Shown: positions 1,023 through 61,583 of the stretch, one piece after another | How the letters are laid out: each line of letters opens with the position of its first letter | Numbering within the stretch: the stretch's first letter is position 1 | Assembly: GCF_963675165.1 (NCBI RefSeq) | Contig: NC_087377.1 | Location: forward strand, 11,704,632-11,768,631 | Length of the DNA: 64,000 bases | Reading direction: 5' to 3' | Origin: Halichondria panicea | Taxonomy: Eukaryota > Porifera > Demospongiae > Suberitida > Halichondriidae | The notes under the pieces: model-generated | Database searches by the model: none | What the model was told of the DNA's origin: nothing | Seen by the model: the letters and a program-made list of their open reading frames with translations, nothing else | Made by a program: the position numbers and the translations under genes

Positions 1023-2999
1023 AGGCGTCTCTAATGTCGAACACGAGTGTAGCATGTCCTGGTGAGGCTGTTTTGTTCACATGCTCTTCGCCTGGTACTT
1101 CGTTGACATGGCAAGTGGATCTACTATCACCAGCAGGGACGTCACTGCAAAGTTTCTTCCTTCCCTCACAAATTGGTGGTCGAAGAACACTTGGACCTGG
1201 AGTGATCATGTTTGAGGCTGTTCTTGTGAGCAATGATGGTGGAACTCTGACATCCACTCTCATCAACCTCAGTGAAGTGTCTGTACTGGATGATAGCAAT
1301 GTCACCTGTACTGTTACTAACAATGGTCCTATGTCACAGCAGCAAACCATCATGGTTGCTGGTGAGTATTTATACTTCATAATTATACCTGAGATTTTTA
1401 ACTTTCAGTTGTCCCAACACTTCCACTCAATCCAAGCGTATCCTTCATTCAAAACCAGCTCAGTTCGTCCATTATCACTCTGGAGTGGGACCCTCCCTCC
1501 TCTACTGGTGGTGTGTCTGTCAGCTATGTTCTCACCATCTCCCAAACACCTCTCTCTGGGTCAGCAGTCACCATGGAGACCACCTCCACACAGATCACTG
1601 TTTCCTATAACACACCCTACAATGTGACCATCAGAGCTGTCAACTGTGCTGGAATGAGTCAAGAAAGTTCAATTGTGGATCTAAGTAAGCTATACTTCAT
1701 GGTGACTGCCGTCATTGATTATAGGCTGCAATTGTATATAAGTAGGCTATTTTATGATCATAAAACATAAATGCCTTTATCAATCAATGCAGTTGTGTGC
1801 CCCACACCATCTACTGCTACTGGTGTGACTATCACCAACACACCTCCTGTCACTATTGGTGGATCCATGCTCACTTTCACTTGCAGTGGAGACAATGAAG
1901 TGAGAACCTCAACCTGTGGCACTAGTGGATGGTCTCCTAACCCTGGGACCTTTGACTGCAGCAGTCCGATTACAGGTATATAATCTTAATCAAAAATGTG
2001 TACATGCTTCTTTTCATTGGTGTCCTCATTAGATCCCCCAGTCACCTGTGGCTCTCCTGATGCACCATCCAGAGGTAGTGTGGACATCAATGGTGGGACA
2101 CCACCCTTCTCACTGGGTTCAGAGGTCACCTATCGCTGTGACGAGGGACTGTTCCCCTTTGATGTGAGGACCAGCACATGCACTGATGTGGGGGGTAGGG
2201 GAGAGTGGGTGGAGAATCCTGGGAGCTTGATGTGCAGGGAGAGACCAGGTGAAATGTAGTTGATCAGAACAAAATTTTCCTGCGAAAAAATAATTTCTGT
2301 CTGCATGATCTGTCTACAATTGTATTCAATGGCAGGTCATATAATATTGGGTGCTCATGTTGAGCTGATGAGATACAAACATCTGTCATGTGCTATAGTC
2401 ATAGTATAATCATAATTATGATATAGATATATTTTCTGACCGTCCATATAATTATAGTCAACTGCACTGTACCTGTTGAGCCCTGCAACGGTGCTATAAT
2501 GGACCATGAGAGGTTGAACGAGACAGTGTTGGAGGGAACAGTGCTGACTTACCAGTGTGACAATGGACTCTCATTGACTGGACCCAACACCATTACTTGC
2601 ACTAATGCTGGAGTCTGGAGCACTGAGCCTGAGGCAATCATGTGTGTACTTATGACTGAAGGTGATATATAATTATATATATGAGCTTTGTAATTGTTTG
2701 CTATTTATATACTACCGGTACCTCATCTCACAGTTTCTACTGTCGCTTCCTTGTCCACTTCTGCAACTGTCGCTATCAGTGTGGTCATCACTTTCATTGT
2801 CACTCTAGTCATTGGGTTCTTCACTGGACTGCTGGTGATGCATATTTTCTCTCGTAAGAAAGCAGTGTACTTCCCAGCAACTGAAGGACAATCTAATGTA
2901 GGACCCACTGCACCAACTGGTCCTGTTTATGAGGAGGTGTCACCCAAAGAGGAGATTGAACTCAACACAAACCAAGCATACGGACCAGTAGGACTGTGA
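1023..2999 (+). CDS. G1: class A Ig-FN3-CCP3-TM receptor (signal exon not found)
   Basis: Single-pass cell-surface receptor. Exon model: Ig 1023-1361, FN3 1409-1684, CCP1 1793-1975, CCP2 2033-2248, CCP3 2458-2661, TM plus tail 2734-2999. All internal exons start and end in phase 1 with GT-AG borders and sum to about 494 residues after an unseen first codon base. The Ig domain shows SVACPGEAVLFTC and a later VTC. FN3 has TLEWDPPS, YVLTIS and NCAG. Each CCP shows the four-cysteine sushi pattern. The TM is ISVVITFIVTLVIGF followed by SRKK, then the conserved tail with VYEEV and AYGPVGL. CCP2 onward is nearly identical to G6, but the Ig and FN3 exons differ. No signal-peptide exon was found, so this copy may be 5'-damaged or use a diverged first exon. 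Ligand unknown; a recognition role is inferred from domains and clustering. Confidence 0.78.
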
Positions 3000-3720
3000 A
3001 ACTCATTCACTTTAATATTCAACGAGTTATAATTAATTGCGATCATTCTGGCATTTCATTTGTTCTACAGACTATCATGATAGAGGCTATAGTGTTTTAT
3101 CCTTCGTATATTATAATTATATAACTATACGTAGAGATTTTCTCAATATAATAATTTATTTTGCATTCCCTAATACAAGCAGGAGGTTATTTTTTGCTGT
3201 AAATTTGTCATTATTATAACGTGGTGTTTTTGACTTCCTCAAAGAAATAGAATGAAGTGGTGTGGTTCCTTTGAAACAAGTGATCAAACTCGACAGTTAT
3301 TATAACTATGCCTCGGTGTGGTGGTAGTATATGCATTATACTCTAGCTTTCAGTATACTATTGTTCTCCTTGCAACTTTTATTATAATGTATATTCAGCA
3401 TCAGATACGTTCATTGAGAACAATGTAAACAATACATGTACGTAGCACTGCATCTGTTCACATATTTAGCAAAGAGTAGTAAGAAAAAACAACAATTAAG
3501 CTACATTAATTATACATCTGCATGTTACTGTTCTGTCAGATTTGTCCAGATTCCTGCAGCAAATAATTATAAATCACAGTACATAAAGTATTTGTAAGAA
3601 AAACAATTATTATAATGAGTGGTGCAAGCTGTGCAGTGAAAATGCCTCTCGCCATGTTTTGCTTCTGTCACTCAAAAAGTGATTATAGAGACAGAAAGTA
3701 GACATTACGCAATGCCGGAC
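3000..3720. other. 3' flank of G1
   Basis: AT-rich and non-coding. It holds the block GAGTGGTGCAAGCTGTGCAG with AATGCCTCTCGCCATGTTTT (about 3616-3660). The same block lies downstream of G2, G6, G7 and G9. The whole stretch is repeated after G6 (42354-43064). Confidence 0.5.
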
Positions 3721-5479
3721 TCACATTGGATCGTGTTGTTCTACTCTCCCTCTAAGGATCATTCTCCCTAGCAGCTGATGGAGTGAAGTGAGATAGTCCA
3801 CTCCAGCAGACTGCACCAAGGCATTGTCACAGCTCTGTGACGTGGGTGGAGGGGGAGTACATGTAAATAACTGGAGAATATACATTACCTATTAAACAAT
3901 GGACACAAAAGTGTTTTGGAGCAAACGTTAACCTGTGCTATTGTAAATAATGTCTTCTATACAGCGTTGGAGCAACATTATTGAACACACTCAAAGAAAA
4001 TGGATAACGAAACAGAAAGAGAGTATTAGAACAACATTGAACACATGCATGCACTCAAATAAATGTAGCGTAGTCACAGTGCAACACAAATACAAGCAAT
4101 TAAATGTACTGTGGAATCCACTGCTCTGTTTCAGTGAAGCACTGGTGTCTAAGAAATTTCAACCCACACACTATCACTATAAAACAACTGGAGAGCTAGC
4201 TACTTTCATACATCTACTCATCTCACCAGTTTGAGCAGTGTCTCCAAGAGGTTGATATGTTTAGGGTAGTGTCTGTGTCGTAGTGTCTCAGCACAGAGGG
4301 GGAGGAGGGAGGACATTCGGTCACCACACCCATTACACTACTCAGCTCTCCAGCAGGAGAAGGAACTGGAGGGGGTGTACAATGGGTTAAAACTACCATT
4401 ATTATTATAAGTACTCTACCTCAATGGACAACACACAACACATTCACAAGCTGTACACAACACTTGTGTCACTGGCTGATACAGTGACCACCACATTTAT
4501 CTACCTATACTATACAGCACATCTACAAAAGTGCACCTAATCCACATGTCACATCAACATACCTTTATCCCATACCACACTCAATCTCATCTCCACACAC
4601 AACATGCATGCACACACCCTCACCCCTCATTCTCTCCCACGGCTCTCCCGGCTTGTGATAGTGAGAGTCTATACATCCTCCCCTCCTCATTTTGGGAGCC
4701 AATGAACCACACGAGTACATCTGCTGGTCTGTATGAGTCAGGTCGTCATGGATACGATGTACCACCCCAAATACAGACGGTCCAGGATCAATACCACAGG
4801 AGCTGAGGAAGGGGGAGGATGAACAATAGTAAAACAATTCAATCGTAAACACAATCATCAATAGCTAAGCGTATTACATCTTTCAGACAGCTGTTCAGGT
4901 AGTAACACAGTCGAAAGGGCTTTCAGCGCTCAATGTACAACAATATTGAAAGCCAAGCAGCAGCTCACAAGGTTAGAGAAAGAGATAGTTGAGTGCTGTA
5001 CAAGTAATAAACTGAGCAAACAAATAAATTTTACAATCTTGACAGTACACCTCAAATTATCAGCACAGTCTACAGTCTGTACAGTGTCTCACCATAGGCC
5101 TTGGTAATACTGGTGAGAGCAACAGCTGTAGTTATAGTGTGGTAACAGTGAGTTTTTCTTACTTTCACTCTTCTGGGAAGCATCCCAGGAAGTTACCACT
5201 GGTCAGACAGCTACAGGCGGCTAAAGAAATTAAGGGGCGGGATATGAACTGATAACATTAGTAGACTAAGAGTCGTCATGGAAACACTCCAACAACAGTA
5301 CTAAAAAAAGTCAAAATCTACACCTTAATGACCAAAGATTTCACTGTATGCAAAAATCCCATCACCCACTCACCACTTTGTGGATGTTCTGCTCTACAAG
5401 CTGCACTCCCCTGGTCTGTGTGACCATCCTCCAGGTCTCCTGAGAGTAGAGCCTCACACCCTCAGCCATAATATAGTAC
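3721..5479 (-). pseudogene. HEAT-like protein gene copy M1 (partial, 3' end)
   Basis: Minus-strand exons recognised because they recur with splice signals in many copies here. Order 5' to 3': exon Y 5374-5479 (EGVRLYSQETWR, 35 codons), exon A 4624-4802 (VFGVVHRIHDD, QQMYSCGSLAPKMRRGGC), exon C 4227-4345 (RVSSLLPLCAETLQ-type helices in intact copies), terminal exon E 3721-3810 (LLGRMILRGR, ending HDPM and a stop). Exon D, present in other copies, is missing between C and E. The helical, leucine-rich exons, with NHAVREAACICTAELG in copy M5, suggest HEAT/ARM-like repeats. I do not recognise the family. Converges tail-to-tail with G1. Likely a decayed copy. Confidence 0.45.
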
Positions 5480-6631
5480 CTGAGGAGGAGGTAGAGATAG
5501 TGAAATACAGTGGGACAATAAACAAAGAACCTTCAGAGAAAAGGGACACTGTACTGATAAGGAAAATGCTTCCGTGTCGTAAATATTAATAAACAATAGA
5601 CAGTACGAAATCATTCAACCAATATGCACATTCTGTACTATAGGGTGAGTAGATTTGGTAAAGAGGTTGTAATAATAATAATAATAATGTTATAGTTATA
5701 TACTACATTGTATTAGTCACTAGTGGAATTCAAAGTGAAAGAAATGGACAACTATACTGCCACTATTATCAAACAGGATTGTTATAGTTTTAGGGATTTA
5801 TGGCAGTAAACCCACCGCTTAAGCACAAGGGCGTAGCCCGAGGGCGAGGTGGTTTACACCAACCAGTATGCACATTCTGTACTATATATAGGGTGGATAG
5901 ATTTGGTTATAATAATTATGTTATACTTATTGTTCACTATATCAAAATTTATGGCAGTCAACCTCCGAGGACGAGGGCGAAGCCCCGAGGCCAAGGATGG
6001 TTTACATTTGCTATAAATTCAAATGTAGTGGACAATAAGTGTTATATATATAGATCTACCCACTTGAATGAAAAGTACTTGCCAGCTAAGTTACCTCGAT
6101 CACCTTGGATATAACTAGCTAACAGTCTCATAAACTATTAAAAACGAACAAAAAATTTGTGCGTATAGCTTGAAGCCAGTGCTAAGCTTCTAGCTCGATG
6201 CATTAACTTTTCAATGTCCAAGCAATGAGCCCCACCCATCCTCCAGCCTTCCTGGTGTTTAGCGAGCCCCAACTATCTGTCCTACCCTTGTCAACAAGTG
6301 TCTATGTAGATCTAGTATAAAATCAGTGTGCCATCAAGGCAAGGGAGTTTATGAGGAATGTGCTCTATATATATAGGGCTGGGGTTTATGGTAGTTAAAC
6401 CCCACCCAGTTGCTATGATACAGACCCCAAATGGGGTATATAATAATATAATAATAGGTGTCTTATATATCATGTGTATAATAGGTGTCGTACTAAGAGA
6501 GAGGATGAACAATATAAGAAGGCTATAATAGGCTTATAACCGATTATGATAACGCAGTAATTTTTATTCTAGAATAATGGCGAAAAATATTTGGTGCTAT
6601 AATAACAGGCCTATAAGATGCATATAATTAT
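5480..6631. repeat. Spacer with hairpin repeat family
   Basis: Contains (TAA)n near 5672-5690. Two hairpin-forming modules, about 5795-5860 and 5950-6010, begin TTTATGGCAGT(A/C)AACC, carry CGAGGGCG(T/A)AGCCC and end GGTTTAC. A related piece is at about 6383-6408, and the module recurs at about 24605-24650 and 45040-45270. No gene seen. Confidence 0.45.
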
Positions 6632-6793
6632 TGTGTACACTGTATGGTGATGTTGGTGTGTACACTGTATGGTGATGTTGGTGTGTACACTGTATGGTGA
6701 TGTTAGTGTGTACACTGTATGGTGATGTTGGTGTGTACACTGTATGGTGATGTTAGTGACAACTGTATACACTGTATGGTGATATCGGTGTGT
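6632..6793. repeat. 25-bp minisatellite
   Basis: Five to six tandem copies of TGTGTACACTGTATGGTGATGT plus TGG (25 bp). It encodes HHHTVYT-type shadow peptides only. The duplicate at 45850-45985 has fewer units, so the array has changed length since duplication. Confidence 0.8.
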
Positions 6794-6979
6794 GTACATA
6801 AAAATAAGCTGTTTAAGCAAACTATAGACACTTTCATGGACTGCTTTAACTGTAATGAGACGGTGGTTGAAATAATTCTAAAACTTGTAGGCGATTTTCG
6901 AAAGCGACAAAAAACACTCTTTTCTAATCAATATAATCGTTGCTTTATAATTATAGCTTCACGATCATTCCCCATGTTA

Positions 6980-7192
6980 TAATGAAGTCATTACGGTAAA
7001 AAGTTATTGTATCCGTTTTACCGCTGTGCACGTGCAATGAAGCTCAATGCACGGCTCTATGAGCATCTTGTTATAATTATATTAGTCTACGAAAACTGGA
7101 AGTGTAATTAAAAGAAGCTATGAATAAATTATCATAAAGGAAGTAAACAAGGAGGTTGTGTAAACCTTCTCACTGTCAAGAAATAATTTGAG
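6980..7192 (+). promoter_or_regulatory. Class B receptor promoter-proximal region (G2)
   Basis: Starting at CATTACGGTAAAAAGTTATT this block is conserved ahead of G2, G3, G7, G8 and both remnants. It has an E-box (GCACGTGC near 7027), GGAAGTGTAATTA near 7098, and GGAAGTAAACAA at 7139-7150, where an ETS core abuts a forkhead core about 43 bp before the ATG. G5 keeps only the ETS-like elements (34709-34720). Function is inferred from conservation among paralogs. Confidence 0.45.
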
Positions 7193-8796
7193 ATGACACT
7201 AATAGAGATAATAAAGCTCATTAGAGTTCTTCTGATTTGCTTTCTGGCTGGCTTCAGCACTGGTAAGACTGACTATTCAATTATAGATTTCCTTACATTG
7301 CTGCATGTTTCGTAAAGCACAATATTCAGTGAGTGTGGAGAGACCATGTCCAATGGAAACAGTCACTTTCACCTGCACTGCTCCTGGAGATTCCTTGAGA
7401 TGGTCACCATCAGATGTTACTAGCATCACTATCCTCTCCTCCTTGGGTCTCAATGTACCACTAATGCAGTCAGATTACACTGTGACACTGATTGCATTCA
7501 ATGACACTACATTAACATCTACTCTGTCAAGAACAGCAGAGAATGGGATCACTGTGTCCTGTGTTGAGCTTAGTATACCTACTCTGACCACTATAGGATC
7601 TTCAACAATCCGATTGGTTGGTGAGTTGCAGTTAGTGTCTCGTCAATTGTCTGTATACACTAAGTTACATAGATCCACCAGGATCACCTTCCACAATAAG
7701 ATACTCCATTCTGAGCAGCTCAGCTAATGAAGTCAGCGTATCTGTGCAGTGGGACCCTCCAACTGAGATTGGTGGTAGAGATGACCTCACCTACACAGTG
7801 ACCGTCTCACCTCCGGCCCAGCTCTCTGCTACTGTCCTCACATCCACCTCTGTCACTGTGACTGCTCAATACGATGTGGACTACACTGTAAGTGTTATGG
7901 CTACCAATTGTGCTGGGAACAGTACAACTGCTGACTACAACTTTAGGATTGGTGAGTATTATTATTTTGACACAAATTGTCAACTCCTTAATTCTCAGGT
8001 AAATGTCCTGTGTTGACCAACCCCATGAATGGAGCCTTTGGACCAGTCTCCAGCAGATTATCAGGATCCACAGTAATCATCCAGTGTGACACTGGGTATG
8101 TATCTGCTGTTACAATGGTGACATGTGAGGGTACACTAATGTGGAGTCCAGACCCTGAGGCTATTGAGTGTACATTACTAACCACACCTACTCCCACAAC
8201 TCGTGAGTTAAGCTCTTGGTTGTAGGAAATTAATACAAAATATCTATGTTAATCATTACACAGCTCCTCCAATAAACTGCACAGCTTCACTACCCTCACC
8301 ACGGAATAGCATTATCAGTGATCATTCAGTACCAGCTTTTCCCGGTACACAAGTTACCCTCCAGTGCGACGATGAACTGTTCCCTGAGGGAATAATGACT
8401 GCTACCTGTCTAGCTACAGGAAAGTGGGACGAGGAGATCGTCTGCAGAGGCAAGTGTATTCATTACTTGAATATACACTTGTAATAATACTTCTCTCTTG
8501 AACAACCTACAGCTGCTCCTTTTAGTTGTGCCAGCCTATCTGATGGGAGTCGATTTGATGCAGCTGTCTCCATCGGCGTTGTTGTCACAGCAGTTGCGTT
8601 CACAATCATTGGATTATTGATAGGTCTCTTGATCATGTATTTGTTCATGCGTAAGAAGGCAGTATGCTCCCCAGCAGCTAAAGGACAAGCTAATGTTGGA
8701 CCCACTACACCAGTTGGTCCTGTTTATGAGGAGGTGTCACCCAAAGAGGAGATTGAACTGAATACTAACCAGGCGTATGGACCAGTAGGACAGTGA
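7193..8796 (+). CDS. G2: intact class B Ig-FN3-CCP2-TM receptor
   Basis: Complete 441-residue model. Signal peptide 7193-7262 (MTLIEIIKLIRVLLICFLAG), Ig 7318-7620 (an in-phase alternative acceptor allows 7330), FN3 7673-7951, CCP1 7999-8202, CCP2 8264-8449, TM plus tail 8513-8796. The Ig domain has RPCPMETVTFTC, LRW and a later SC. FN3 has VQWDPPTE, TYTVTVSPP and NCAGNS. CCP1 runs from KCPVLTNP to EAIEC. The donor after CCP2 is GC (8450), a GC-AG intron shared by all class B paralogs that keep this exon. TM: FTIIGLLIGLLIMYLF followed by MRKK. The tail carries VYEEV and AYGPVGQ (Q instead of the usual L). This is the best-preserved class B copy; its duplicate G7 is frameshifted. Predicted type I surface receptor, ligand unknown. 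Confidence 0.85.
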
Positions 8797-10083
8797 AACT
8801 TCTGTGTTAATGTGCATGCTCGTAAACGATTTTAACAACTGTAAGCAGCAACATCTGTTCATTAAAAGCCACTACATCTTTTGTATTAAAAAAGAAGCTA
8901 TATTAAATGAGTGGTGCGCTGTGCTAATGCCTCTCGCCATGTTTAGCTTCGCTCAATTAAGGTATTAGAGTGTTATAATTATGTCATATAACACTCAAAT
9001 ACAAAGTATACTAATACCTCTTCTATGATCATAATTATAATACGATCATAGAAGAGGTATTTGTATGCTTTGGATACTGTTAAGTTATTATTATGCCTCG
9101 GTGTGTATGTGCAAGCAAGGTATACGGCAGTGTGTGTTTGTATGTGTGCATGTGTGTATGTAGACTGCTACAGCTGCTCAAAGATCAATAAGCTGCAAGT
9201 AAAAGTTTCTATAGGGTTCTAGTAATGTTTTCATGGATTCTGATTCGTGGATTTCCAAAAGAATGCTTCGTTCTCGAGTTATGCCTAATTTTGGAATGCC
9301 ATTGCAGCCTTTCAGAAGAGTGCATGTGTAGCAAAAGTTGTCCATGGAGTGTTGCTACTCAGTAGTTAGCTCTGTACTAGAACGCTAGAGAGCTGCAAGG
9401 CTCTATACACTGATGCAGCAGCCATAAACTTTGTACTTTTAGCATCCTCTTTAGCAACAATCATGATCATTTCGATCCCACTCTAGATGCAAAAATATTC
9501 ATCATGATAATCATATCACGTGTGTATTAGCAATATCAGCTAGTAGGTTTATGTTGGCACATCCACTGAGGCATCAGCACCTGCGGTGCTTTCATTATTG
9601 TTTGCAATTGTTGGCAATGAATCCACACACAGTCAATAGAAGAGGAGCTTAATGGCAACAGAAATCTATTATCTGATGGCTTGGTAAACTAGAGCACTAA
9701 TTTAAAAGTGCTAACCCTCAGCTGTCGACATGAATCTATACAAACTTGAAGCGTGTTACACAATAAATGCAGATGTATAATGTGTATATGTGTGTACATG
9801 CATGGACACAAAATGAGCTGTTTGAACGAACTAGACACTTTCATAGGCTGCTTTAACTGCTGTACTTGAAACTTTTAGGCGATCTTCGAAGGCGACAAAC
9901 CAATTGATTTAATCGTTGCTTTATAAATTCACGATCATAATTATATTCCCCATAATGATAAACTCGTTACGGTAAAAAGTTATTGTATCCGTTTTGCTGC
10001 TGTGCGATGAAGCTCAACGCACAGTGTGAATGCTCTACTGAGCATTGTTATGAAAATTAATACTTCCCAACAGTATGTTATTT
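8797..10083. other. Spacer between G2 and a remnant, with a 49-bp hairpin
   Basis: Holds the shared AATGCCTCTCGCCATGTTTA block (about 8936) and a near-perfect hairpin at 9013-9061 with arms AATACCTCTTCTATGATC. About 9170-9360 is homologous to the sequence after truncated G3 (12640-12860). The end of the region (9965-10080) repeats the class B promoter block. No gene seen. Confidence 0.5.
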
Positions 10084-10645
10084 ACACAGCTCCTCCAATG
10101 AACTGCACGGCTCCACTATCCTCACCACAGAGTGGCACCATCAGTGATCATTCAGTACCTGCTCTTTCCGGTAAACATGCAAGTGACATTCCAGTGTGAT
10201 GATGGACTCTTCCCTGAGGCTGAGGGCATAATGACTGCCACCTGTCCAGCTACAGGAGAGTGGGACCAAAACCCAGTAGAGATCCTCTGCAGTGGCAAGT
10301 GTAGTCATTACTTAAAGTAATTATGCTTCTATATACCTTGAACCACTTATACAGCTGTTTCTTACAATTGCGCCAGCCTATCTGATGGGAGTCGATTTGA
10401 TGGAGCTGTCTCCATCAGCGTGGTTGTCATGGCATTCTATTCACCGTCATTGAATTGTTGATGGGACTCTTGATAATGTATTTGTTCATGCATAAGAAGA
10501 ATGTGTACTCCCCGTCAGCTAAAGAGCAAGATAATGTATAGGACCCACTGCACCAACTGGTCCTGTTTATGAGGAGGTGTCACCCATGCAGAGAGGAGAT
10601 TGAACTGAATACCATAACCAGGCGTATGGACCTGTAGGACTGTGA
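10084..10645 (+). pseudogene. Class B receptor remnant (CCP2 and TM exons only)
   Basis: A class B promoter block runs directly into a CCP2-type exon starting at 10092, followed by a GC-donor intron and a TM exon starting near 10354. Signal peptide, Ig, FN3 and CCP1 exons are missing. CCP2 has a 4-bp insertion (ATGC, near 10177) shared with the copy at 49.3 kb. The TM and tail exon has further frameshifts near 10431, 10536 and 10587. Dead internal-deletion copy. Confidence 0.8.
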
Positions 10646-10771
10646 AACTTCTGGTACTTTGCTAATGTGCATGTAACATAATTTATAGAGCATGCATGTA
10701 CTGCATCTGTTCATTATCAACAACTTAGAACAATGGCGTAAGTCATGTAGCTACGTAATATAGTCAAAGAC

Positions 10772-11400
10772 TCACATTGGATCGTGTTGTTCTATTCTCC
10801 CTCTGAGGATCATTATCCCCAGCAGCTGACAGAGTGAAGTGAGACAGTCCACTCCAGCAGACTGCACCAGGGCATTGTCATATTGCTCTGGGGGTGGGTG
10901 AGGGGGATACATGTAATTAAGTGGAGTATATACAGATCTCGTTATTTATTGAAATAGCTTAAATGTAGGAAACAAGGACAGAATAACATTGAACACTCAA
11001 AGTAGTTGGATGCATGTAGTCACAGTACAATTACACAAATACAAGAAAATGTTATGTGGAATCTACTTAGAAAATTTCTTGCAGTGTCAGCTTTTGAGGA
11101 AATTTAGGTGATCTAGCTGGCTAAGAAATATCAACCCACGCTATCGATAGTACAACAAACATCACTAAAGTAACTTTATAGACTTAGAGAGTATAGGGTC
11201 ACCAGAGGACGTCCGACATGCGTGCATGAATAATTACAAGTGCTAATGTATTTTTTGGATCACACAATGACATCAATGCACTGAACTTATAGTGATTCGT
11301 GCACGCATGTCAGACCTTCTCTGGGGTCATACTGTAAGTATCCTTTATTCACCCATCTCACCAGTTTGAGCAGTGTCTCCATGAGGTTGTACAAGGTCTT
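10772..11400 (-). pseudogene. HEAT-like gene fragments, copy M2
   Basis: The terminal exon E motif (LLGRMI and following) is at 10772-10861. A truncated exon C (starting after CTCAC near 11361) runs into a CA-repeat after about 45 bp. Nothing else of the family remains. Confidence 0.45.
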
Positions 11401-11456
11401 CGCACACGCACGCACACGCACACGCACACGCACACGCACACGCACACACACACACA
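11401..11456. repeat. CA/CGCA microsatellite
   Basis: CACACG/CACGCA tract followed by (CA)n. It replaces the rest of HEAT-like exon C and recurs with a different length at 50580-50632. Confidence 0.85.
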
Positions 11457-11699
11457 CATTCTGAACTATATATATTATATTATAGATTAGTCATTACAGT
11501 AAAAAGTTATTGTATCTGTTTTGCCTCTGTGTGCGTGCAATGAAGTTCAACGCACGGGGTGAATGCTCTATGAGCATCTTGTTAATTATTTGTCTACAAA
11601 AACTGGAAGTGTAATTAAAAGAAGCTATGAATAAATTATCATAAAGGAAGTAAACAAGGAGGTTGTGTAAATATTCTCACTGTCAAGAAATAATTAGAG

Positions 11700-12632
11700 A
11701 TGACACTAATAGAGATAATAAAGCTCATTAGAGTTCTTCTGATTTGCTTTCTGGCTGGCTTCAGCACTGGTAAGACTGACTATTCAATTATAGATTTCCT
11801 TACATTGCTGCATGTTTCATAAAGCCCAATATTCAGTGAGTATGGAGAGACCATGTCCAATGGAAACAGTCACTTTCACCTGCACCGCTGCTGGAGATTC
11901 CTTAAGATGGGAACCATCAGATGTGACTCGTATTCTTGTCCGCTCTGATCTCAATGTACCAATGACGTTATTTGGCTACACTGTGACACTGATTGCAGCC
12001 AATGACACTACATTAACATCTATACTCTGTCAAGAACAGCAGAGAATGGGATCACTGTGTCCTGTGTAGATCCTGAGCCTACTGCGGCCCTGATAGGATC
12101 TTCAATAATCCGTTTAGCTAGTGAGTAATGTTTTTTTTCTGTCTAGGCCATTGTACCATCATATTCGATTTCTTATAGATCCACCAGGACCACCTTCCAT
12201 AATAAGACACTCCACTTTAAACACCTCAGCCAATGAAGTCAGTGTATCTGTACAGTGGAACCCTCCTACTGAGAATGGTGGTAGAGATGACCTCACCTAC
12301 ACAGTGACCATATCACCTCTGGCCCAGCTCTCTACTACTGTCCTCACATCCACCTCTGTCACAGTGACTGCTCAATACAATGTGGACTACACTGTCAGTG
12401 TTGTGGCTACCAACTGTGCTGGGAACAGTACGACTGCCGAGTACAGCTTTAGGATTGGTAAGTATTATCGTTTTGTACACACAGTTTCAACTGATCCTCT
12501 CAGGCAGCTGTCCTGTGTTGACCAACCCCATGAATGGAGCCTTTGGACCAGTCGCCAGCAGATTACCAGGATCCACAGTAACTATCCAGTGTGGCGATGG
12601 GTATGTATCTGCTGTTACGATGGTGACATGTA
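11700..12632 (+). pseudogene. G3: broken class B receptor, 3'-truncated
   Basis: Signal peptide exon 11700-11769 (identical to that of G2), Ig 11825-12120, FN3 12179-12457, CCP1 from 12504. The Ig exon has a 2-bp insertion (ACATCTATACTCTG, G2 has ACATCTACTCTG, near 12022) that leads to a TAG near 12067. CCP1 stops matching at about 12632 (after VTC) and runs into sequence homologous to the G2 downstream spacer, so CCP2 and the TM exon were lost by deletion. G8 shares both lesions, so they predate the segmental duplication. Confidence 0.82.
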
Positions 12633-12978
12633 ATAGTCAGCAGTTGTACTGTTCCCAGCACAATTGGTAGCCACAACAGGATCAATGGAGTGCAAGTAAG
12701 AGTTTCTATAGGCTTCTGGTAACATTTTCTTGGATTCTGATTCGTGGATTTAGTAATACTTCGTTCTCGAGTTATGCCTAGTTTTATTACTGGGAATGCC
12801 ATTGAAGCCTTTTCAGAAGAATGCGTAGCACAATTTGTCCATGGAGTGTTGCTACTCTACTTATAGTAGTTACATGTAGCTCTGCTAAAATGCTCATCAT
12901 GATAAATCATATCATATCATGTGTGTACGTATTAGCAATATTAGCTAGTAGCTTTATATTGACACAGCATCAGCACCC

Positions 12979-21660: not shown

Positions 21661-21689
21661 TGAGAGGAAATCAATATGAAATCAATGTG

Positions 21690-44969: not shown

Positions 44970-44976
44970 TGTAATA

Positions 44977-45016
<40 letters not shown>

Positions 45017-49873: not shown

Positions 49874-50000
49874 AAACTTCTGGTACTTTGTTAATGTACA
49901 TGTAACATAATTTATAGAGCATGCATGTACTGCATCTGTTCATTATCAACAACTTAGAACAATGGCGTAAGTCATGTAGCTACGTATTATAGTCAAAGAC

Positions 50001-50632
50001 TCACATTGGATCGTGTTGTTCTATTCTCCCTCTGAGGATCATTATCCCCAGCAGCTGACAGAGTGAAGTGAGACAGTCCACTCCAGCAGACTGCACCAGG
50101 GCATTGTCATATTGCTCTGGGGGTGGGTGAGGGGGATACATGTAATTAAGTGGAGTATATACAGATCTCGTTATTTATTGAAATAGCTTAAATGTAGTCA
50201 CAGTACAATTACACAAATACAAGAAAATGTTATGTGGAATCTACTTAGAAAAGTTCTTGCAGTGTCAGCTTTTGAGGAAATTTAGGTGATCTAGCTGGCT
50301 AAGAAATATCAACCCACGCTATCGATAGTACAACAAACATCACTAAAGTAACTTTATAGACTTAGAGAGTATAGGGTCACCAGAGGACGTCCGACATGCG
50401 TGCATGAATAATTACAAGTGCTAATGTATTTTTTGGATCACACAATGACATCAATGCACTGAACTTATAGTGATTCGTGCACGCATGTCAGACCTTCTCT
50501 GGGGTCATACTGTAAGTATCCTTTATTCACCCATCTCACCAGTTTGAGCAGTGTCTCCATGAGGTTGTACAAGGTCTTCGCACACGCACGCACACGCACA
50601 CGCACACGCACACACACACACACACACACACA
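50001..50632 (-). pseudogene. HEAT-like fragments, block B copy of M2
   Basis: Exon E from the stop at 50001, and a truncated exon C near 50540-50575 running into a CA microsatellite (50580-50632). Confidence 0.4.
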
Positions 50633-50874
50633 TTCTGAAGTATATATATTATATTATAGATTAGTCATTACAGTAAAAAGTTATTGTATCTGTTTTGCCT
50701 CTGTGTGCGTGCAATGAAGTTCAACGCACGGGGTGAATGCTCTATGAGCATCTTGTTAATTATTTGTCTACAAAAACTGGAAGTGTAATTAAAAAGAAGC
50801 TATGAATAAATTATCATAAAGGAAGTAAACAAGGAGGTTGTGTAAATATTCTCACTGTCAAGAAATAATTCGAG

Positions 50875-51795
50875 ATGACACTAATAGAGATAATATTTTT
50901 TTTGATTTGCTTTCTGGCTGGCTTCAGCACTGGTAAGACTGACTATTCAATTATAGATTTCCTTACATTGCTGCATGTTTCATAAAGCCCAATATTCAGT
51001 GAGTATGGAGAGACCATGTCCAATGGAAACAGTCACTTTCACCTGCACCGCTGCTGGAGATTCCTTAAGATGAGAACCATCAGATGTGACTCGTATTCTT
51101 GTCCGCTCTGATCTCAATGTACCAATGACGTTATTTGGCTACACTGTGACACTGATTGCAGCCAATGACACTACATTAACATCTATACTCTGTCAAGAAC
51201 AGCAGAGAATGGGATCACTGTGTCCTGTGTAGATCCTGAGCCTACTGCGGCCCTGATAGGATCTTCAATAATCCGTTTAGCTAGTGAGTAATGTTTTTTT
51301 TCTGTCTAGGCCATTGTACCATCATATTCGATTTCTTATAGATCCACCAGGACCACCTTCCATAATAAGACACTCCACTTTAAACACCTCAGCCAATGAA
51401 GTCAGTGTATCTGTACAGTGGAACCCTCCTACTGAGAATGGTGGTAGAGATGACCTCACCTACACAGTGACCATATCACCTCTGGCCCAGCTCTCTACTA
51501 CTGTCCTCACATCCACCTCTGTCACAGTGACTGCTCAATACAATGTGGACTACACTGTCAGTGTTGTGGCTACCAACTGTGCTGGGAACAGTACGACTGC
51601 CGAGTACAGCTTTAGGATTGGTAAGTATTATCGTTTTGTACACACAGTTTCAACTGATCCTCTCAGGCAGCTGTCCTGTGTTGACCAACCCCATGAATGG
51701 AGCCTTTGGACCAGTCGCCAGCAGATTACCAGGATCCACAGTAACTATCCAGTGTGGCGATGGGTATGTATCTGCTGTTATGATGGTGACATGTG
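50875..51795 (+). pseudogene. G8: broken class B receptor, block B copy of G3
   Basis: Signal exon 50875-50932 is altered but in frame (MTLIEIIFFLICFLAGFST, a short T-run replaces part of the usual segment). Ig 50988-51283 has a TGA in place of the conserved Trp after LR (near 51071) plus the 2-bp insertion shared with G3. FN3 51342-51620 is open. CCP1 from 51667 is truncated after VTC at about 51795. Lacks CCP2 and TM exons. Confidence 0.82.
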
Positions 51796-52942
51796 ATAGT
51801 CAGCAGTTGTACTGTTCCCAGCACAATTGGTAGCCACAACAGGATCAATGGAGTGCAAGTAAGAGTTTCTATAGGCTTCTGGTAACATTTTCTTGGATTC
51901 TGATTCGTGGATTTAGTAATACTTCGTTCTCGAGTTATGCCTAGTTTTATTACTGGGAATGCCATTGAAGCCTTTTCAGAAGAATGCGTAGCACAATTTG
52001 TCCATGGAGTGTTGCTACTCTACTTATAGTAGTTACATGTAGCTCTGCTAAAATGCTCATCATGATAAATCATATCATATCATGTGTGTACGTATTAGCA
52101 ATATTAGCTAGTAGCTTTATATTGACACAGCATCAGCACCCGCGGTACTGTTGTAATTGTTGACAATGAACTACACAGTCATTATAGAAGAGGGAAACAG
52201 AAGTCTATCTGATGGCTTGGTGAACTAGAGCATGAAGTGCTAACCCTCGACTACTGACATGAATCTATACAAACCTAAAGCGTGTTACACAATAAATGCA
52301 GATGTATGTATGAGGATAAAAGCTGGCTAGTAAACAGCACAAGTAACAAGAGCAATAAAATTAAAGGCATGCTGAAACTTTTGAGAAATGCGTTTTAGTG
52401 GTGCATGAGACATGCACTGTGGACTAGAATCACATCAAAGTCAGCAAAGAAACCTGGAATCTTGTGGCTCCTGATATGTTCTGGAGCTAAAGAAGCAACA
52501 AACTACAATTCTAGTTTTCTACTGTAGGGACCCTGTTCCATTGCTCCTGGTAAAGGATCACTTTAGCTGAAAATACGCACCACCTTGATTAAAGGCCACG
52601 CGTATATTCATAATACATGTACACGTGCAAGTGTGTTTTCATAATCGATTAATGACATCTGTTAATCCGGAAATTTCATATATTTGGATGGAGTCTGGTC
52701 TCGCTCTATACCGATTAGCGAGGGTCTACTGTATTAATTTTGCGTGCATCTCCCCATGCACTCTCTTTATGCAGTAAACGATAATTATTACCACCTCTGA
52801 GGCACTTCTCACACGTATAGATCATATAAACTAATGTCTAATATGTAATGACACAATATGCGATTTGACATGGATACATGCAGTCGTCCTAGGCTTTAAG
52901 TTGTTGGCCTACATGTAAGTCATGTAGATATTATTTAATGAC
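51796..52942. other. Spacer with the LINE empty site
   Basis: Homolog of 12633-15010 without the LINE. The unoccupied target CATCAGCACCCGCGGTACTG is at about 52130-52149. The dispersed repeat seen at 14280-14700 follows (52200-52600). Confidence 0.7.
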
Positions 52943-54770
52943 TCACATTGGATTGTTTTGTTTTATTCTCCCTCTGAGGATCATTCTCCCCAGCAGCTGA
53001 CATAGTGAGGTGAGACTCCAGCATATTGCACCAGACATTTGTGTGTGCATGTGCATGCATGTGTGTACATGTAAATACTGGAGTACATTATCAATGTTGA
53101 AATTGCAACAAAGTACACAAACAGAAAGTGTTTTGGAGCAAACTTGTATGATATTGTAAATATAATGGCTTCTAGAATCATAATAACCCACCAGTCCATG
53201 AAATATGGGGAGTCCAAGAACAGCTCGAGGTATCTCTTGAACACTCTCTTACCCAGCAACTTGGTAAACACTGGAAAATGTGGACAGAGAGAGAGAGAAA
53301 GTATTAGAGCAACATCGAACACATGCACTCAAGATACCGTAGTCACAGTACAACACAAAATAATTATTTTGTAACGTTCTATGGAATCCACTTTGAAAGT
53401 TTCTTACAGTGTCAGCTTTTGAGGACATTATAGTCTGTTTCAGTGAAGCACTAGTGTCTTATAAATGTCAACTCATACACTATCACTAAAGCAACTGGAG
53501 AGCTACTTTAATATCATCACCCACACTTGGATTGGTCAGTGTGCATGAAATATACAGGAAGTAGTCACGTTACTCTCCGCATACATCTGATGCACAGTAT
53601 ACCTACGTTCGATACTCTCTCTCTCTCTTAATTATGCTTTATTGCCTCAATTTACATCACACAACACATTCACAAGCTGTACTCGACACTTGGATCCTTG
53701 TGTGTCACTAGTAACCACCACATTTATACCACATGCACATGTACGAAAGTATACACACATCTATGTACATGATCAGTACACCTAATCTACACAACATCAA
53801 CATACCTTTATCCCATACCCCACTACACTCTCAATCATATAGCATACCGTATAGCGCGAAATTTTCGAGGGGCTTAATTTTCGCGGATATCGTGAGTTCA
53901 CGAAAAATTTTCTTTAATTAGAATTATCTGCGCTATAACGTTGCAAATATTAAAGGCATGGCTTCCGGTAAGCATGCAGTTCTTCCACGAACATTGTGCA
54001 ACGAAATGCTTTTAGAGGCCATTCCACGAAATATAAGTGCCTCGAAAAGTTCGCACTATAATACGGTATAACATTGTGCTTGTTGTGTTTACCGTGTATA
54101 GAGTTGTTGTAAAGTTCCAATCTGGAGTTTTCCTCATGTCAAAAGTAAAGATTGTAACTGATGAACATTAATTTTGCAACTTAAGTTAATAGATCTAGTT
54201 TAATAATTATGGTATGCATGTGATGTGTAAAAGTTTATGGTGCAGTGGGGTATGGGATAAAGGTAACATAGCTTGAATGTGTGGTAGATAAATAATATGG
54301 TGGTAATGTGGTGGTCATTCATAAAATCTATAATTATATACGATAGAAGAGGAAGAAGGATTGGAAACGGAAGCGATTCACGTGATGTTTTACATTAAAG
54401 TCTACAAAGTGGCTCTGGGACCATCCGTGTATATGAATCACATGCCCCCTGGTATAATAGTATAAGGAAGAAAATAAGAGCGCTTCTTCATACTTGTCTA
54501 TAGTACCTATAATATTTATCCCATACCCCACTACACCCTCAATCACATACATGTAGCATACTCACACTCCTCACCCTTCATTCTTCTCTCACGGCTCTCC
54601 TGGCTTGTGATAGTGTGAGTCCATACATCCTCCCCTCATTTTGGGGGTAAGTGAACCACACGAGTACATCTGCTGGTTTGTGTGGGCCGGGTCGTCATGG
54701 ATACGATACATGCACCACCCCAAATACAGCCGGTCCAGTATCAATACCAGAGGAGCTGAGGAAGGGGGAG
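52943..54770 (-). pseudogene. HEAT-like gene copy (exons A, D, E) split by a MITE
   Basis: Exon A about 54590-54760 (interrupted frame), exon D 53192-53270 (VFTKLLGKRVFKRYLELF), exon E from the stop at 52943. A 220-bp MITE (53847-54066) lies between A and D. Decayed. Confidence 0.4.
53847..54066. mobile_element. TA-flanked MITE
   Basis: Ends CCGTATAGCGCGAAATTTTC and GCACTATAATACGG form inverted repeats with internal TTTTCGAGG/CCTCGAAAA arms. TA lies on both sides (53845-53846, 54067-54068). An unoccupied related site, AGCATATCCACAC, is at about 26746. Confidence 0.8.
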
Positions 54771-55981: not shown

Positions 55982-56189
55982 ATTAAACTAATTTAAAACA
56001 CAGTAGGTTGAGAGTGAGTCAACTGACAGTTTGTGTTAATTAATGTGTGGGTGGAAGTATGCATTAATTTTTGGCTTTCCTTGACTTCCTTAAAAGAGGT
56101 GTGTTCTTTTTAAATGCTATCTATTTACACTCTTATACTACGTCTAGTTCTAGATCTATTAGCCACTGTCTATATCTTGCAATCCTGCA

Positions 56190-58267
56190 ATGCAAGTAAA
56201 AGCTTTTATTATTATCATTACTCAGTTGTTTGCTATTGCTGCAGGTAAGGACTTACTTTATATATATATATATATACTAGAGGTATAAATACTATATATA
56301 TAATGTGTTGACTGCATGTATATAGCTATCATTGTTCAGCCACACTGACATCCACTCCCACTGTGGCCTGTCCTAATGACACTGTCACCTTCACCTGCAC
56401 TCTACCTGGTAGCGCCATACGATGGACAGTGGCTCCTCCACAAGGCCAACTGTTCCTCATCACTTTGAGTACCAGTAACACTGAGGACATACGAGGTAAT
56501 CCAGCGTTCCGTGGTGTTCTCACCGATACCAGGGAAAACCTCACTGCCACTCTCACTTCACTGTCTGAGGCATCCATTGTGGAAGGTACTATGGTGGAGT
56601 GTGTGGGATCACTTGGTTCACAAGAGAGTCCTCTCACTATCGCTGTGGCTGGTGAGTGGATCATGGAATGCATGTAGAGTTATATCTATAGTCAATATAC
56701 TCACAGATCCACCCAGCCCTTCACTGAATCCAAGAGTGTCCTCCACTCAAAACCAACCCAACTCCTCCATTATCACTCTGGACTGGGACTCCCCCTCCTC
56801 TACTGGTGGTGTGTCCGTCATGTATGTCCTCACCATCTCCCCAACACCTCTCGCCGAGTCACCAGTCACCGTGGAGACAACCTCTGCACAGATCACTGTC
56901 CTATATAACATTCCTTACAATGTAACCATCAGAGCTGTCAACTGTGCTGGAATGAGTCAAGAAAGTCTAATTGTGGATCTTAGTAAGCCATTCCATGGCC
57001 GTAATTATTATAACACATGCATGTATATTGTACTCTTTCTCAGTTTTGTACCCCACACCGTCTACTGCTGCTGGTGTGACCATCACCAACACACCTCCTG
57101 TCACTATTGGTGGATCCATGCTCACTTTCACTTGCGGTGGACCCAATGAAGTGATAACCTCAACCTGTGGCAGTAGTGGGTGGTCTCCTGACCCTGGGAC
57201 CTTCGACTGTGGCACCCCAGTTATAGGTATCATACATGGGCAACTAACTCTCTGTTGATCTCATGCATTATAGATCCCCCATCAGTCACCTGTGGCTCTC
57301 CAACTGCACCATCCAGAGGCAGTGTGGACATCAGTGGAGGGACACCACCCTTCTCACTGGGTTCAGAGGTCACCTTCCACTGTGATGAGGGACTGTTCCC
57401 CCCTAATGTGAGGACCAGCACATGCACTGATGTGGGGGGTAGGGGAGAGTGGGTGGAGAATCCCTGGAGCTTGGTGTGCAGGGATAGGCCAGGTGAAATG
57501 TAGCTGTTTAGAAGCTTGATTTTTCTGTCAAAAAAAATGTTTATGTGACTGCATGTGTATACAATTGTACCGCCTTTGTTCCACATTTTAGTATTCTGCA
57601 ATGGCAGGTCATTAATGGGTGCTCATGTTGAGCTGATGAGATACAAAGATGTATACTCACAGTTATTTTCTGACCGTCCCTATATATAGTCAACTGCACT
57701 GTACCTGCTGAGCCGTGCAACGGTGCTATAGTGGACTATGAGAGGTTGAACGAGACAGTGTTGGAGGGAACAGTGTTGACTTACCAGTGTGACAATGGAT
57801 TCTCACTGACTGGACCCAACACCATCACTTGCACTAATGCTGGAGTCTGGAGTACTAAGCCTGAGGCAATCGTGTGTGTACTTATGACTAATGCTGGAGT
57901 CTGGAGTACTAAGCCTGAGGCAATTGTGTGTGTACTTATGACTGAAGGTGATGATGAGCTTTGTAATATTGTATACTATCTACTATCTCATTTCACAGTT
58001 TCTACTATCGCTCCCTTGTTCTCCACTTCTGCAACTGTCGCTATCAGTGTGGTCATCACTTTCATTGTCACTCTAGTCATTGGATTCCTCACTGGACTCC
58101 TAGTGATGCATCTTTTCTCTCGTAAGAAGGCAGTGTACTTCCCGGCAACTGAAGGACAAGCTAACGCAGCGTCCACTACACCAGTTGGTCCTGTTTATGA
58201 GGAGGTATCACCCAAAGAGGACATTGAACTCAACACAAACCAGGCGTACGGACCATTAGGACTGTGA
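56190..58267 (+). CDS. G9: class A receptor with altered CCP1 and CCP3
   Basis: Complete 523-residue model. Signal peptide 56190-56244 (MQVKAFIIIITQLFAIAA), Ig 56340-56651 (TVACPNDTVTFTC, IRWTVAPP), FN3 56707-56982 (TLDWDSPS, NCAGMS), CCP1 57044-57226, CCP2 57274-57492, CCP3 57690-57947, TM plus tail 57999-58267. CCP1 begins LYPTPS where G1 and G6 have VCPTPS, so the first sushi cysteine is a tyrosine. CCP3 has an exact-length 54-bp tandem duplication adding 18 residues (TNAGVWSTKPEAIVCVLM twice) and one extra cysteine. The tail is VYEEV, then PKEDIELN (Glu to Asp), then AYGPLGL. The 51-nt last intron has no in-frame stop. Frame intact throughout. Confidence 0.87.
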
Positions 58268-59099: not shown

Positions 59100-59334
59100 T
59101 CACGTTTGATTGTGTTGTTCTCTTCTCCCTCCGAGGATCATAACACTTATAGTGTCCTAATTGATATTGAACAGCTCGATCAGCAAAACTTCAAAGGATA
59201 ATCGCATTCATGACACTATAATATATATCCAATCTACCACAGAAACCAATATCAACATTGACAAGTTGACAGCACACTCCCGAGCTTCTAAAGCTGCTAT
59301 TGCTAGCTAGGTACATCAACGCTCGCACCACAAC

Positions 59335-61583
59335 ATGGTTGAATTTTGGATTAAGATGGCCTTGATACTTCAAAGCCTGTTCAAAACGGCAAGTGCAAGT
59401 AAGAATACAGTGAGCAGTATTAAAACATGCAGTTTAATTAGCATATGCAGATTCTGCTTTGATGTCTAGCGCTGGTGATGGCTTGGCCTGCCCCACTATC
59501 TCAGTGGTATTCACCTGCTCTGTTAGTAGAAGTTCACTTTTATGGGAAGTGGATCCTCCACCTGCATGGCGTGATTACTGCGCAGTTGACACAAGTGGTG
59601 TCTTCTGCTTCTACTGAGCTATTACAAATAGGGGTAGAACGTTTCATGTTTCAAGCAGCTAGAACTGAATTTAGTAGTAATAGCCTCACCTCTACCCTCA
59701 CCACAGTCACTGAGGTGTCCTTGCTGAACGGCACCGTTATGCATTGTATTGGAGAAGCAACAGAATCCCTAACGATCATTGTTGCAGGTGAGACATATTT
59801 ATATAATAGTTTTAATTGAGTTCAACTGATCTCTTACAGAGCCACCCACTTCTCCATCAGCTCCAATGGTGGCTTCACAACAAAACCAAATCAGTTCCTC
59901 TATTATCACTCTGGAGTGGGACCCTCCCTCCTCTACTGGTGGAGTGTCTGTCAGCTATGTCCTCACCATCTCTCCAACACCTCTCTCCGGGTCACCAGTC
60001 ACCGTGGAGACCACCTCAGCACAGATAACCGTCTCCTACAACACTCCCTACAATGTGACAATCAGAGCTGACAACTGTGCAGGATCGAGCAGTGATGTGA
60101 TGGTGATGATTCCTTTTATTGGTTAGATATTACACATACTAGCTTCACTGTTGGCCGTTAGATATTAGCTTCTGCGAATCACTGTAATTTAATCTGCTGC
60201 ATGCAGTTACCTGCCCCTCTAACACAACACCTGCGAATAGAGTGACCATTGTTGGTGCTCCTCCACTGCCTGCACTAGTAGGATCAACACTGAGCTTCAC
60301 TTGCAATGGACAGACGGTATCAGCAACCTGTGAGAGTAATGGACGATGGTCACCTGACCCCGCCACATACGTCTGTCTCTCAGGTAGGTATATTCACTGT
60401 CATGACTGTATACTATAGTCTTTTCTCAGATCTCACCTGTGGCTCTCCTGCTGCACCATCCAATGGCAGTGTGGACGTCAGTGGTGGGACACCACCCTTC
60501 TCACTGGGTTCAGAAGTCACCTATCGCTGTGACGATGGACTGTTCCCCCTTGATGTGAGGACCAGCACATGCGCTGATGTGGGGGGTAGGGGAGAGTGGG
60601 TGGAGAATCCCGGGAGCTTGGTGTGCAGGGAGAGCCCAGGTGAGGCAGCCAATTCCATTTCTAGATCTTGTTTTTAAACTTTACTTCTTTATATGCAGCT
60701 AATTGCACAGTACCCAAGGAGCCCTCCAATGGAACTATAGTGAACTATGAGAGGTTGACTGAGACAGTGTTGGAGGGAACAGTGCTGACTTACCAGTGTG
60801 ACAGTGGGCTCTCACTGACTGGACCCAACACCATCACTTGCACTAATGCTGGAGTCTGGAGCACTGGGCCTGACACCATCGTGTGTGTGTCACCAACTGA
60901 AGGTGAGGATAATTAACCCGAGGCTCGCAGGCGAACATGGGTTTTAGAAGTCTCTTGTTACCCGAGGCCATACCGCGGCCAGCGGGTATAGTAGTCCGTT
61001 GTCTGTTTACGTATTCTGAGTCTACTCACCTGGATATCATAGTTGTTTTGGAAGGCTTCTTCGCTGACTCTCTTATATAGTTTTGCTGTAAATCATTATT
61101 CTGGTTGTCTTCTGCATGACTATAATTATATAGACCTTAATTCGTGAATTGCTGCTATAGGTTTCCATGATACATTAAATTCTGCGGTTTTCCCAGAGCC
61201 TGTCACATAATGACATAATTTGTATAACAACACAGCTAGTACTCTGGTTGTGATATACTAGTGCTCTATAGTTGTTATCCCTATATAATTATTGCCAATC
61301 CTCCACAGCTCCGACTGTGACAGATGCTACCACACTATCAACTGGTGTAACTCTTGCCATCGGTGTTACTATTACTTTCGTTGCGTCTACTCTCCTTGGA
61401 TTTCTCGCTGGACTCTTAGTGATGTATTCATTCACGCGTAAGAAGGCAGTGTACTACACAAGAAAAACAGCATTATCTGTTGTAGAGCCCACTAAACCAG
61501 TTGGTCCTGTTTATGAGGAGGTGTCACCCAAAGAGGAGATTGAGCTGAACACTAACCAGGCGTATGGACCACTAGGACTGTGA
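59335..61583 (+). pseudogene. G10: class A receptor, frameshifted in Ig
   Basis: Signal peptide 59335-59398 (MVEFWIKMALILQSLFKTAS; an internal Met at 59356 gives a better signal), Ig 59451-59787, FN3 59840-60121, CCP1 60207-60383 (VTCPSNTTP type, as in G4), CCP2 60430-60639, CCP3 60699-60902, TM plus tail 61309-61583. The first half of Ig (LACPTISVVFTC, LLWEVDPP) and second half (LTSTLTTVTEVSLLNG) lie in different frames. Exons sum to one base over a multiple of three, so a +1 shift sits at about 59580-59620. The TM differs from other class A copies (VTITFVASTLLGFLAGLLVM), yet the tail is standard (VYEEV, AYGPLGL). The last intron carries a CCCGAGGC hairpin insertion. Pseudogene or sequence error. 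Confidence 0.78.
60915..61010. repeat. GC-rich hairpin in the last G10 intron
   Basis: AACCCGAGGCTCGCAGGCGA, then ACCCGAGGCCATACCGCGGC, then CAGCGGGTATAGTAGTC. The same module (CCGAGG, CGGCC, GGGTATAGTAG) is at about 28305-28390 and 62607-62650 in inverted or direct form. Dispersed hairpin repeat. Confidence 0.5.

Follow-up and report, generated by a model that had tools for sequence, protein, structure and literature searches.

What would a sponge do with an array of receptor genes that share one cytoplasmic tail and carry widely differing Ig domains? A 64,000-nucleotide stretch of chromosome C1 of the breadcrumb sponge Halichondria panicea, a demosponge in the order Suberitida (G000:C1:11704632-11768631; genome of 131.5 Mb in 39 contigs), here called the window, raises this question. 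The original prediction, made from the letters of this stretch, described ten plus-strand loci and two remnants that encode Ig-FN3-sushi (CCP) receptors, and read them as a birth-and-death recognition locus. When we searched the window by tblastn with the exons of a single gene from each class, A and B, all ten loci and both remnants were recovered where they had been placed (Table 1). Our preferred reading, to which we give a probability of about 60%, is that they belong to a lineage-specific, germline repertoire of single-pass V-set receptors which is diversified by gene conversion and would serve recognition, either immune or allogeneic. The birth-and-death pattern, the common tail and the variable Ig all stood up to analysis; recognition itself is what we infer from them.

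Each intact gene encodes a signal peptide, one V-set-like Ig, one FN3, one to three CCPs and a single exon for the transmembrane (TM) segment and a near-invariant tail. The predicted phase-1 exon grammar was found, with AG/GT borders, in spliced models of B1, A4, A1 and A5; the A2 model, in which one donor is misplaced, has a stop. Two details of the predicted architecture did not hold: the CCP number is one to three rather than two or three (class A has three, class B two, or one in B3), and the tail common to both classes comprises 48 residues after the TM segment, not about 55. Complete open frames are present in B1 (443 aa) and A4 (528 aa). Full-length models of B1, A4 and A1 matched PF00084 (Sushi/CCP, cut-off 20.7) at 40.9, 52.5 and 51.8 bits; for PF00041 (FN3, cut-off 25) A1 scored above the cut-off (30.9 bits) and B1 and A4 just below (21.5 and 23.7). 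An NCBIfam search with three family proteins gave no match. Signal peptides are clear in class B, A2 and A4, with a weak candidate in A3, and the sole good candidate for A1 lies outside the window, 1.93 kb 5' of the Ig exon. This signal-peptide-like exon (in L044), which lies about 970-910 bases before the first letter of the window and is nearly the same as the start of P0047, may be the first exon of A1 or a relic of a lost gene.

The clustering holds, and the family is far larger than had been reported. At least 187 distinct tail places lie on C1 between 11.249 and 14.928 Mb (3.68 Mb; 147 plus, 40 minus), with a median spacing of 6.5 kb and ten inside the window; the count is a lower bound, obtained by merging two TM-tail searches with the first 100 signature places. 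The best 150 of 338 candidates for the class-A TM-tail query comprised 149 on C1 and one on C7, and the best 150 of 301 for the class-B query were all on C1. The tail DNA signature N-x-A-Y-G-P had 235 genome-wide matches versus 2 for a reversed control and is therefore beyond chance. As for the suggestion that no family with this domain order and tail had been described, a literature search found no paper on the family (subscription literature lay mostly outside its coverage), but the genes were already in RefSeq as scattered "uncharacterized", "mucin-2-like" and "complement receptor type 1-like" models.

The tail reads GPVYEEVSPKEEIELNTNQAYGP(V/L)G, with Pro or Gln at Y-2, Val after the first Tyr and 13 residues from that Val to the second Tyr. 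It was analyzed in 58 unique exons, left from 66 after hits with a stop or with about 70 query residues or fewer, and then identical DNA, had been dropped. From PVYEEV to the end, the proportions of nonsynonymous and synonymous differences (pN and pS) were 0.032 and 0.235 (pN/pS 0.14, and low both within and between classes), compared with 0.207 and 0.304 in the TM and juxtamembrane part. Both tyrosines were kept in 58 of 58 exons, a set somewhat biased towards conserved tails because it was found with tail queries. From these sequences we conclude that purifying selection on the tail is strong, and that the ectodomain is either drifting or diversifying. Recent homogenization was rejected as the sole cause of the shared tail: its pS is similar to that of other exons, with a far lower pN.

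The same tail was found on at least four ectodomain types. In L041 (14.42 Mb, class C) the common tail is preceded by an Ig exon that looks unrelated, an FN3-like exon and a single CCP (assigned by eye), and the Ig had no Pfam match; L042/P0057 joins hemicentin-like Ig and FN3 modules to the family TM and a triple tail module. In some tails the second-tyrosine module, 54 bp long, occurs as two or three copies in tandem. On C7, L039 (G000:C7:3596801-3600500), a lone member on another chromosome, has FN3 and CCP of class-B type ahead of a TM that resembles that of A5; its FN3 is frameshifted and its tail is the variant YEEVPPREKIELNINQAYGPLG.

Fold and variation of the Ig domain

An AlphaFold2 model of the Ig (predicted local distance difference test score 94.6) has strands at residues 36-39 and 47-50 between C and D, named C' and C'' by our own assignment, and the B-F cysteines (Cys19 and Cys81) and the C-strand Trp28 are invariant across 17 aligned Igs. 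In a structure search with this model, 43 of the 50 matches listed were T-cell or natural killer T-cell receptors by title; T-cell receptor V domains were best, at 9-21% identity among the matches listed. The domain is thus predicted, with high confidence, to be a V-set-like fold of two sheets with C' and C'' strands.

Both class A and class B vary chiefly in the C'/C'' and FG regions. In class-B-type Igs, one hypervariable (HV) segment, HV1, follows the C-strand Trp and the other, HV2, follows the F-strand Cys. The ratio of nonsynonymous to synonymous substitution rates (dN/dS) was 0.91 (0.60-1.35) in HV1+HV2 and 0.32 (0.16-0.61) in the remaining Ig of 18 class-B-type exons; exons below 66% identity to B1, below 85% coverage or with a stop had been removed, which excludes broken copies. 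Values for the other exons were 0.39 for FN3 (n=20), 0.41 for CCP1 (19), 0.51 for CCP2 (13) and 0.32 for TM-tail (19). Among the 153 Ig pairs, HV dN/dS was 1.36 versus 0.47 for the rest in the 18 closest (dS <0.15), and 0.80 versus 0.28 in the 76 most distant. The predicted wide variation of the Ig sequences was borne out, with near-neutral HV segments set against a constrained tail and framework.

Several observations weigh against the preferred reading. Pfam V-set matched the A4 Ig only below its cut-off of 26 (14.7 bits, E 0.036) and gave no match row for the other nine Ig exons tested, profile matches of the Ig to V-set likewise stayed under the cut-off, and the PDB is rich in T-cell receptors. 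HV dN/dS was not significantly above 1, so that formal positive selection is not established, and pS was also higher in HV columns (0.33 versus 0.15). The HV columns had first been picked on the same class-B alignment, and class A was therefore examined separately: mean entropy in the two regions was 1.53 and 1.48 bits versus 0.92 elsewhere (one-sided rank test, p 9e-6; 20 of 22 proteins, two without an Ig start being dropped; alignment columns are non-independent). These regions also differ in length among class-A proteins and gaps were counted as letters, so length variation raises this entropy. Given the dN/dS, the preselected columns and the higher pS, relaxed constraint together with conversion could yield the HV pattern. 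Outside the Ig, half of the window loci are broken, and expression is indicated solely by RefSeq models with isoform labels; the label of LOC135347183 hints at transcript support.

Duplication, exchange and decay

The genes multiply by segmental duplication and swap pieces. As predicted, a recent duplication is present: the alignment of positions 1790-12978 to 41146-52141 spans 11,338 columns, of which 239 are mismatches and 491 are gap positions, and the duplicate resumes at 14218-15558. A LINE-like (long interspersed nuclear element) insertion (RVT_1, E 1.6e-27) occupies 12977-14218; it ends in poly-A and has a short target duplication, GCACCC. Because the duplicate keeps an empty site near 52135, insertion of the element postdates the segmental duplication. 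From CCP1 on, A1 and A3 lie in the close duplicate (1.5-7.1% mismatch by exon), whereas their Ig-FN3 halves are only 74% alike, and they are therefore chimeras joined at a phase-1 intron.

Exchange reaches into the HV segment itself. Except for a 4-base insertion, the B4 Ig tracks B1 as far as column 113 or so; it then has the state of the paralog L052 at 14 of 14 B1-B4 difference columns in 124-182 (8 substitutions and one 6-base gap). Judged by this pattern, there is a gene-conversion tract in HV1. Blocks are also shuffled among the 18 copies, one HV1b block being identical in five, each with a different HV1a and HV2. In a permutation run test for conversion, 4 of 153 pairs exceeded the global 95% line and the observed maximum was reached in 0 of 300 shuffles; this test is anticonservative, as variable sites cluster, and we therefore relied on the B1/B4/L052 comparison, which shows the tract directly. 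Minimum recombination counts by the four-gamete test, which recurrent mutation can inflate, were 17 events for 49 informative sites in Ig, 18/39 in FN3, 10/24 in CCP1, 10/24 in CCP2 and 17/42 in TM-tail.

Decay is also evident. About half of the copies had been called broken, and five of the ten loci indeed have frameshifts or stops, in addition to the two remnants. Four of them, B2, B4, A5 and B5, have a frameshifted Ig, with a stop as well in B5; in A3 the frameshift falls in the FN3. Tandem duplicates, pseudogenes, the recent segmental duplication, the large number of tail places and the conversion tract together make up the predicted birth-and-death profile, and on these sequences birth, death and exchange are ongoing in the cluster. 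The A1 locus (L012, 11.706 Mb on C1) and L013 (12.423 Mb) are 99.94% identical over 3273 bp at a distance of 717 kb, and L027 and L028 are 99.1% identical, 958 kb apart and on opposite strands; each pair is either a very recent duplication or an assembly artefact. Such pairs, and tails with equal scores in twos and threes, are what would be seen if retained haplotigs or false duplications had inflated the copy number. We consider this improbable: a divergence of 0.06% is below what we would expect between sponge haplotypes, and only two non-overlapping pairs among the fetched loci exceed 97% over at least 800 bp, one of them on opposite strands.

The same broken loci and near-identical copy, together with the transposon insertions in the window and an HV dN/dS near and not above 1, would also fit a largely neutral expansion, in which a recombination-prone, transposon-rich region holds a few functional genes and many decaying copies and Ig variation reflects relaxed constraint. 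This explanation appears unlikely, as the tail has its low pN/pS at normal synonymous divergence, constraint is also seen in the FN3 and CCP exons and in the Ig framework, and relaxed constraint alone would hardly leave classes A and B variable in just the same two segments.

Homologue searches agreed with a lineage-specific repertoire of receptors. Three gave 57, 41 and 58 hits, which named H. panicea in 48, 39 and 51 cases, and no hit was named from another organism (shared 5-residue words were required, so distant kin could escape); under the same requirement, two had no cnidarian-named hit among the best 8000 and 7999 candidates. For P0027, a reference locus matches at 100% identity, which places this protein in the same genome. 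A fragmented H. panicea assembly also exists, according to the accessible text of PMC8994243. Four copies on short contigs were compared with the reference (candidates scored: P0031, 129 of 511; P0033, 124 of 470; P0036, 134 of 429; P0070, 150 of 1050). The best matches among those scored were 77% over residues 1-299 of 306 for P0031 (single exons 88% for Ig and 87% for FN3), 74% over 1-317 of 323 for P0033 (88% for an FN3-CCP1 stretch) and 68% over 4-249 of 250 for P0070 (partial stretches 74%), identities which are lowered by translations that read through introns. P0036 has a clear counterpart at 92-94% (G000:C1:13490213-13491102). Relative to the short-contig translation, this counterpart has one TAG and one change of frame, but the two may fall within introns that were read through, so that it need not be a broken copy. 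Thus three of the four are without a close full-length counterpart among the candidates scored, in contigs of unproven source, in a comparison that had no single-copy gene baseline and drew on a protein database clustered at 90%, which favors divergent cases. These unmatched copies are compatible with turnover between individuals.

Candidate functions and related systems

Sponges branch near the base of animals, and to our knowledge their histocompatibility has long been studied without an accepted Ig-type recognition locus. Vertebrate clusters of the NITR, KIR and LILR type are likewise tandem birth-and-death Ig receptors with tyrosine-bearing tails, but the sponge tail YEEV...NQAYGPV/L fits neither their inhibition nor their activation motif. 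The immunoreceptor tyrosine-based activation motif (ITAM) and inhibition motif (ITIM) have the consensus YxxL/I-x6-12-YxxL/I and (S/I/L/V)xYxx(I/L/V), respectively, and both were rejected as identities of the tail. YEEV resembles a Src-family SH2 ligand, and both tyrosines fit the consensus of YxxPhi endocytic signals. V domains of T-cell receptors and antibodies share the V-set-like fold by structure and the variation in C'C'' and FG regions; unlike theirs, with the low identity noted above, the diversity here is spread over whole germline genes. In Botryllus, Fester is a sushi-bearing receptor in the fuhc region.

Under the preferred reading of a germline recognition repertoire, the variable C'/C''/FG face would bind diverse ligands, such as the surfaces of microbes or allotypes that other sponge cells display, with CCP and FN3 serving as a stalk. 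The tail might be phosphorylated at YEEV and YGPV/L and feed one common SH2-type pathway, or act in YxxPhi endocytosis. Diversity would be encoded in the germline and produced through duplication, decay and gene conversion, not by somatic change.

It is possible, though doubtful, that some or all of these receptors form a sponge histocompatibility complex and decide fusion or rejection in the manner of Alr proteins, with the variable V-set face binding homophilically or nearly so. The Hydractinia allorecognition complex could serve as a functional model by analogy, as its Alr genes are clustered, single-pass Ig-superfamily genes with pseudogenes, V-set-type Ig and strong variation, in the accessible portions of PMC11067881. 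However, Alr is a 41-gene family with V-set and I-set Ig ectodomains (PMC11999971), compared with one Ig followed by FN3 and CCPs at 187 or more places here, and the available parts of PMC11999971 and PMC11067881 do not mention an FN3+CCP architecture. Hundreds of loci per genome are also unlike a system run by two linked genes. The three unmatched short-contig copies are compatible with strong variation between individuals, but their contigs are of unproven organism or individual and parts reach 87-88% in the reference.

A microbe-sensing repertoire, that is, a large germline pattern-recognition set directed at bacteria or symbionts with a role like that of the SRCR, NLR and SpTransformer expansions, is a serious possibility on sequence grounds, short of probable. 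Copy number, CCP modules and variation between copies fit it. Individuals of H. panicea differ in expressed pattern-recognition genes, and the family studied here is not among the classes named in the accessible text of PMC8242945. The SRCR receptors of this sponge, as far as that source goes, also carry CCP and FN3 modules on expanded receptors, but no SRCR domain was found in the three family members scanned. The Geodia cydonium Ig-bearing adhesion molecule and receptor tyrosine kinase (PMC11999971, PMC12018476) likewise place Ig domains in sponge surface proteins; in the available parts of these papers they are not described as a clustered Ig-FN3-CCP family, and the H. panicea family has no kinase domain.

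A family of at least 187 places with variation equivalent to complementarity-determining regions (CDRs) and a conserved tail would allow a concrete test of what sponges recognize with, and bears on the age of V-domain-based recognition. It is a case of gene conversion extending into a hypervariable Ig segment outside the Bilateria, and it is a candidate for the sponge's recognition genes, with loops varied as in vertebrate antigen receptors and a predicted signaling tail held fixed. More tentatively, it might be a polymorphic recognition complex: a megabase germline V-set library in which CDR2- and CDR3-like segments are reshuffled by gene conversion above one fixed two-tyrosine tail, a CDR-style diversification of GFCC'C'' in Porifera without somatic rearrangement.

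Other features of the window

Table 1. Loci, remnants and duplicated segments, in window positions unless a chromosome is given.
Feature	Positions	Strand	Exons and remarks
A1, class A	1023-2999	+	Ig 1023-1361, FN3 1409-1684, CCP 1793-1975, 2033-2248, 2458-2661, TM+tail 2734-2999
B1, class B, complete	7193-8796	+	signal peptide 7193-7262, Ig 7318-7620, FN3 7673-7951, CCP 7999-8202, 8264-8455, TM+tail 8513-8796
Class-B remnant	10011-10640	+	CCP2 and TM-tail, frameshifted; found by tblastn
B2, broken class B	11700-12650	+	signal peptide, frameshifted Ig, FN3 and a truncated CCP1
A2, class A	21764-24365	+	signal peptide 21764-21857, Ig 22040-22405, FN3, three CCP, TM+tail 24097-24365; CCP1 and CCP3 borders uncertain
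B3, class B, one CCP	34788-36202	+	RefSeq match LOC135347183 isoform X1 (P0025)
A3, class A	40405-42353	+	FN3 frameshift; chimeric relative to A1; weak signal-peptide candidate 40284-40338
B4, class B	46389-47991	+	Ig frameshift; Ig a mosaic of B1 and paralog L052
Class-B remnant	49324-49870	+	duplicate of 10011-10640
B5, broken duplicate of B2	50875-51813	+	stop and frameshift in Ig; truncated
A4, class A, complete	56114-58267	+	signal peptide 56114-56195, Ig 56340-56651, FN3 56707-56982, CCP 57044-57226, 57286-57492, 57690-57947, TM+tail 57999-58267
A5, class A	59451-61583	+	frameshifted Ig, FN3 59840-60121, CCP 60207-60383, 60430-60639, 60699-60902, TM+tail 61324-61583
Segmental duplication	1790-15558	.	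partner 41146-53509; left edge in FN3-CCP1 intron of A1/A3
Tandem 54-bp tail modules	G000:C1:11480185-11480309, 12272694-12272764, 12364673-12364743

The RefSeq protein P0025 matches B3 at 100% over 34945-35790 and at 99.1% over 35849-36199, and the third CCP of A4 contains an 18-aa tandem duplication. Scanned against Rfam at gathering thresholds, the window gave no match. A degenerate transposon with broken frames lies on the minus strand at 16234-21681 and retains an integrase zinc-binding domain, a weak integrase core, an Ulp1-type protease and PHD-finger pieces. Further sushi-domain exons are clustered on C2, C4, C5, C9 and C15 (best 150 of 4112 candidates), which suggests other CCP receptor arrays elsewhere in the genome. 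A 25-bp tandem repeat, which translates as repeated MVMLVCTLYGDV, is found upstream of both B1 (6644-6755) and B4 (45865-45951).

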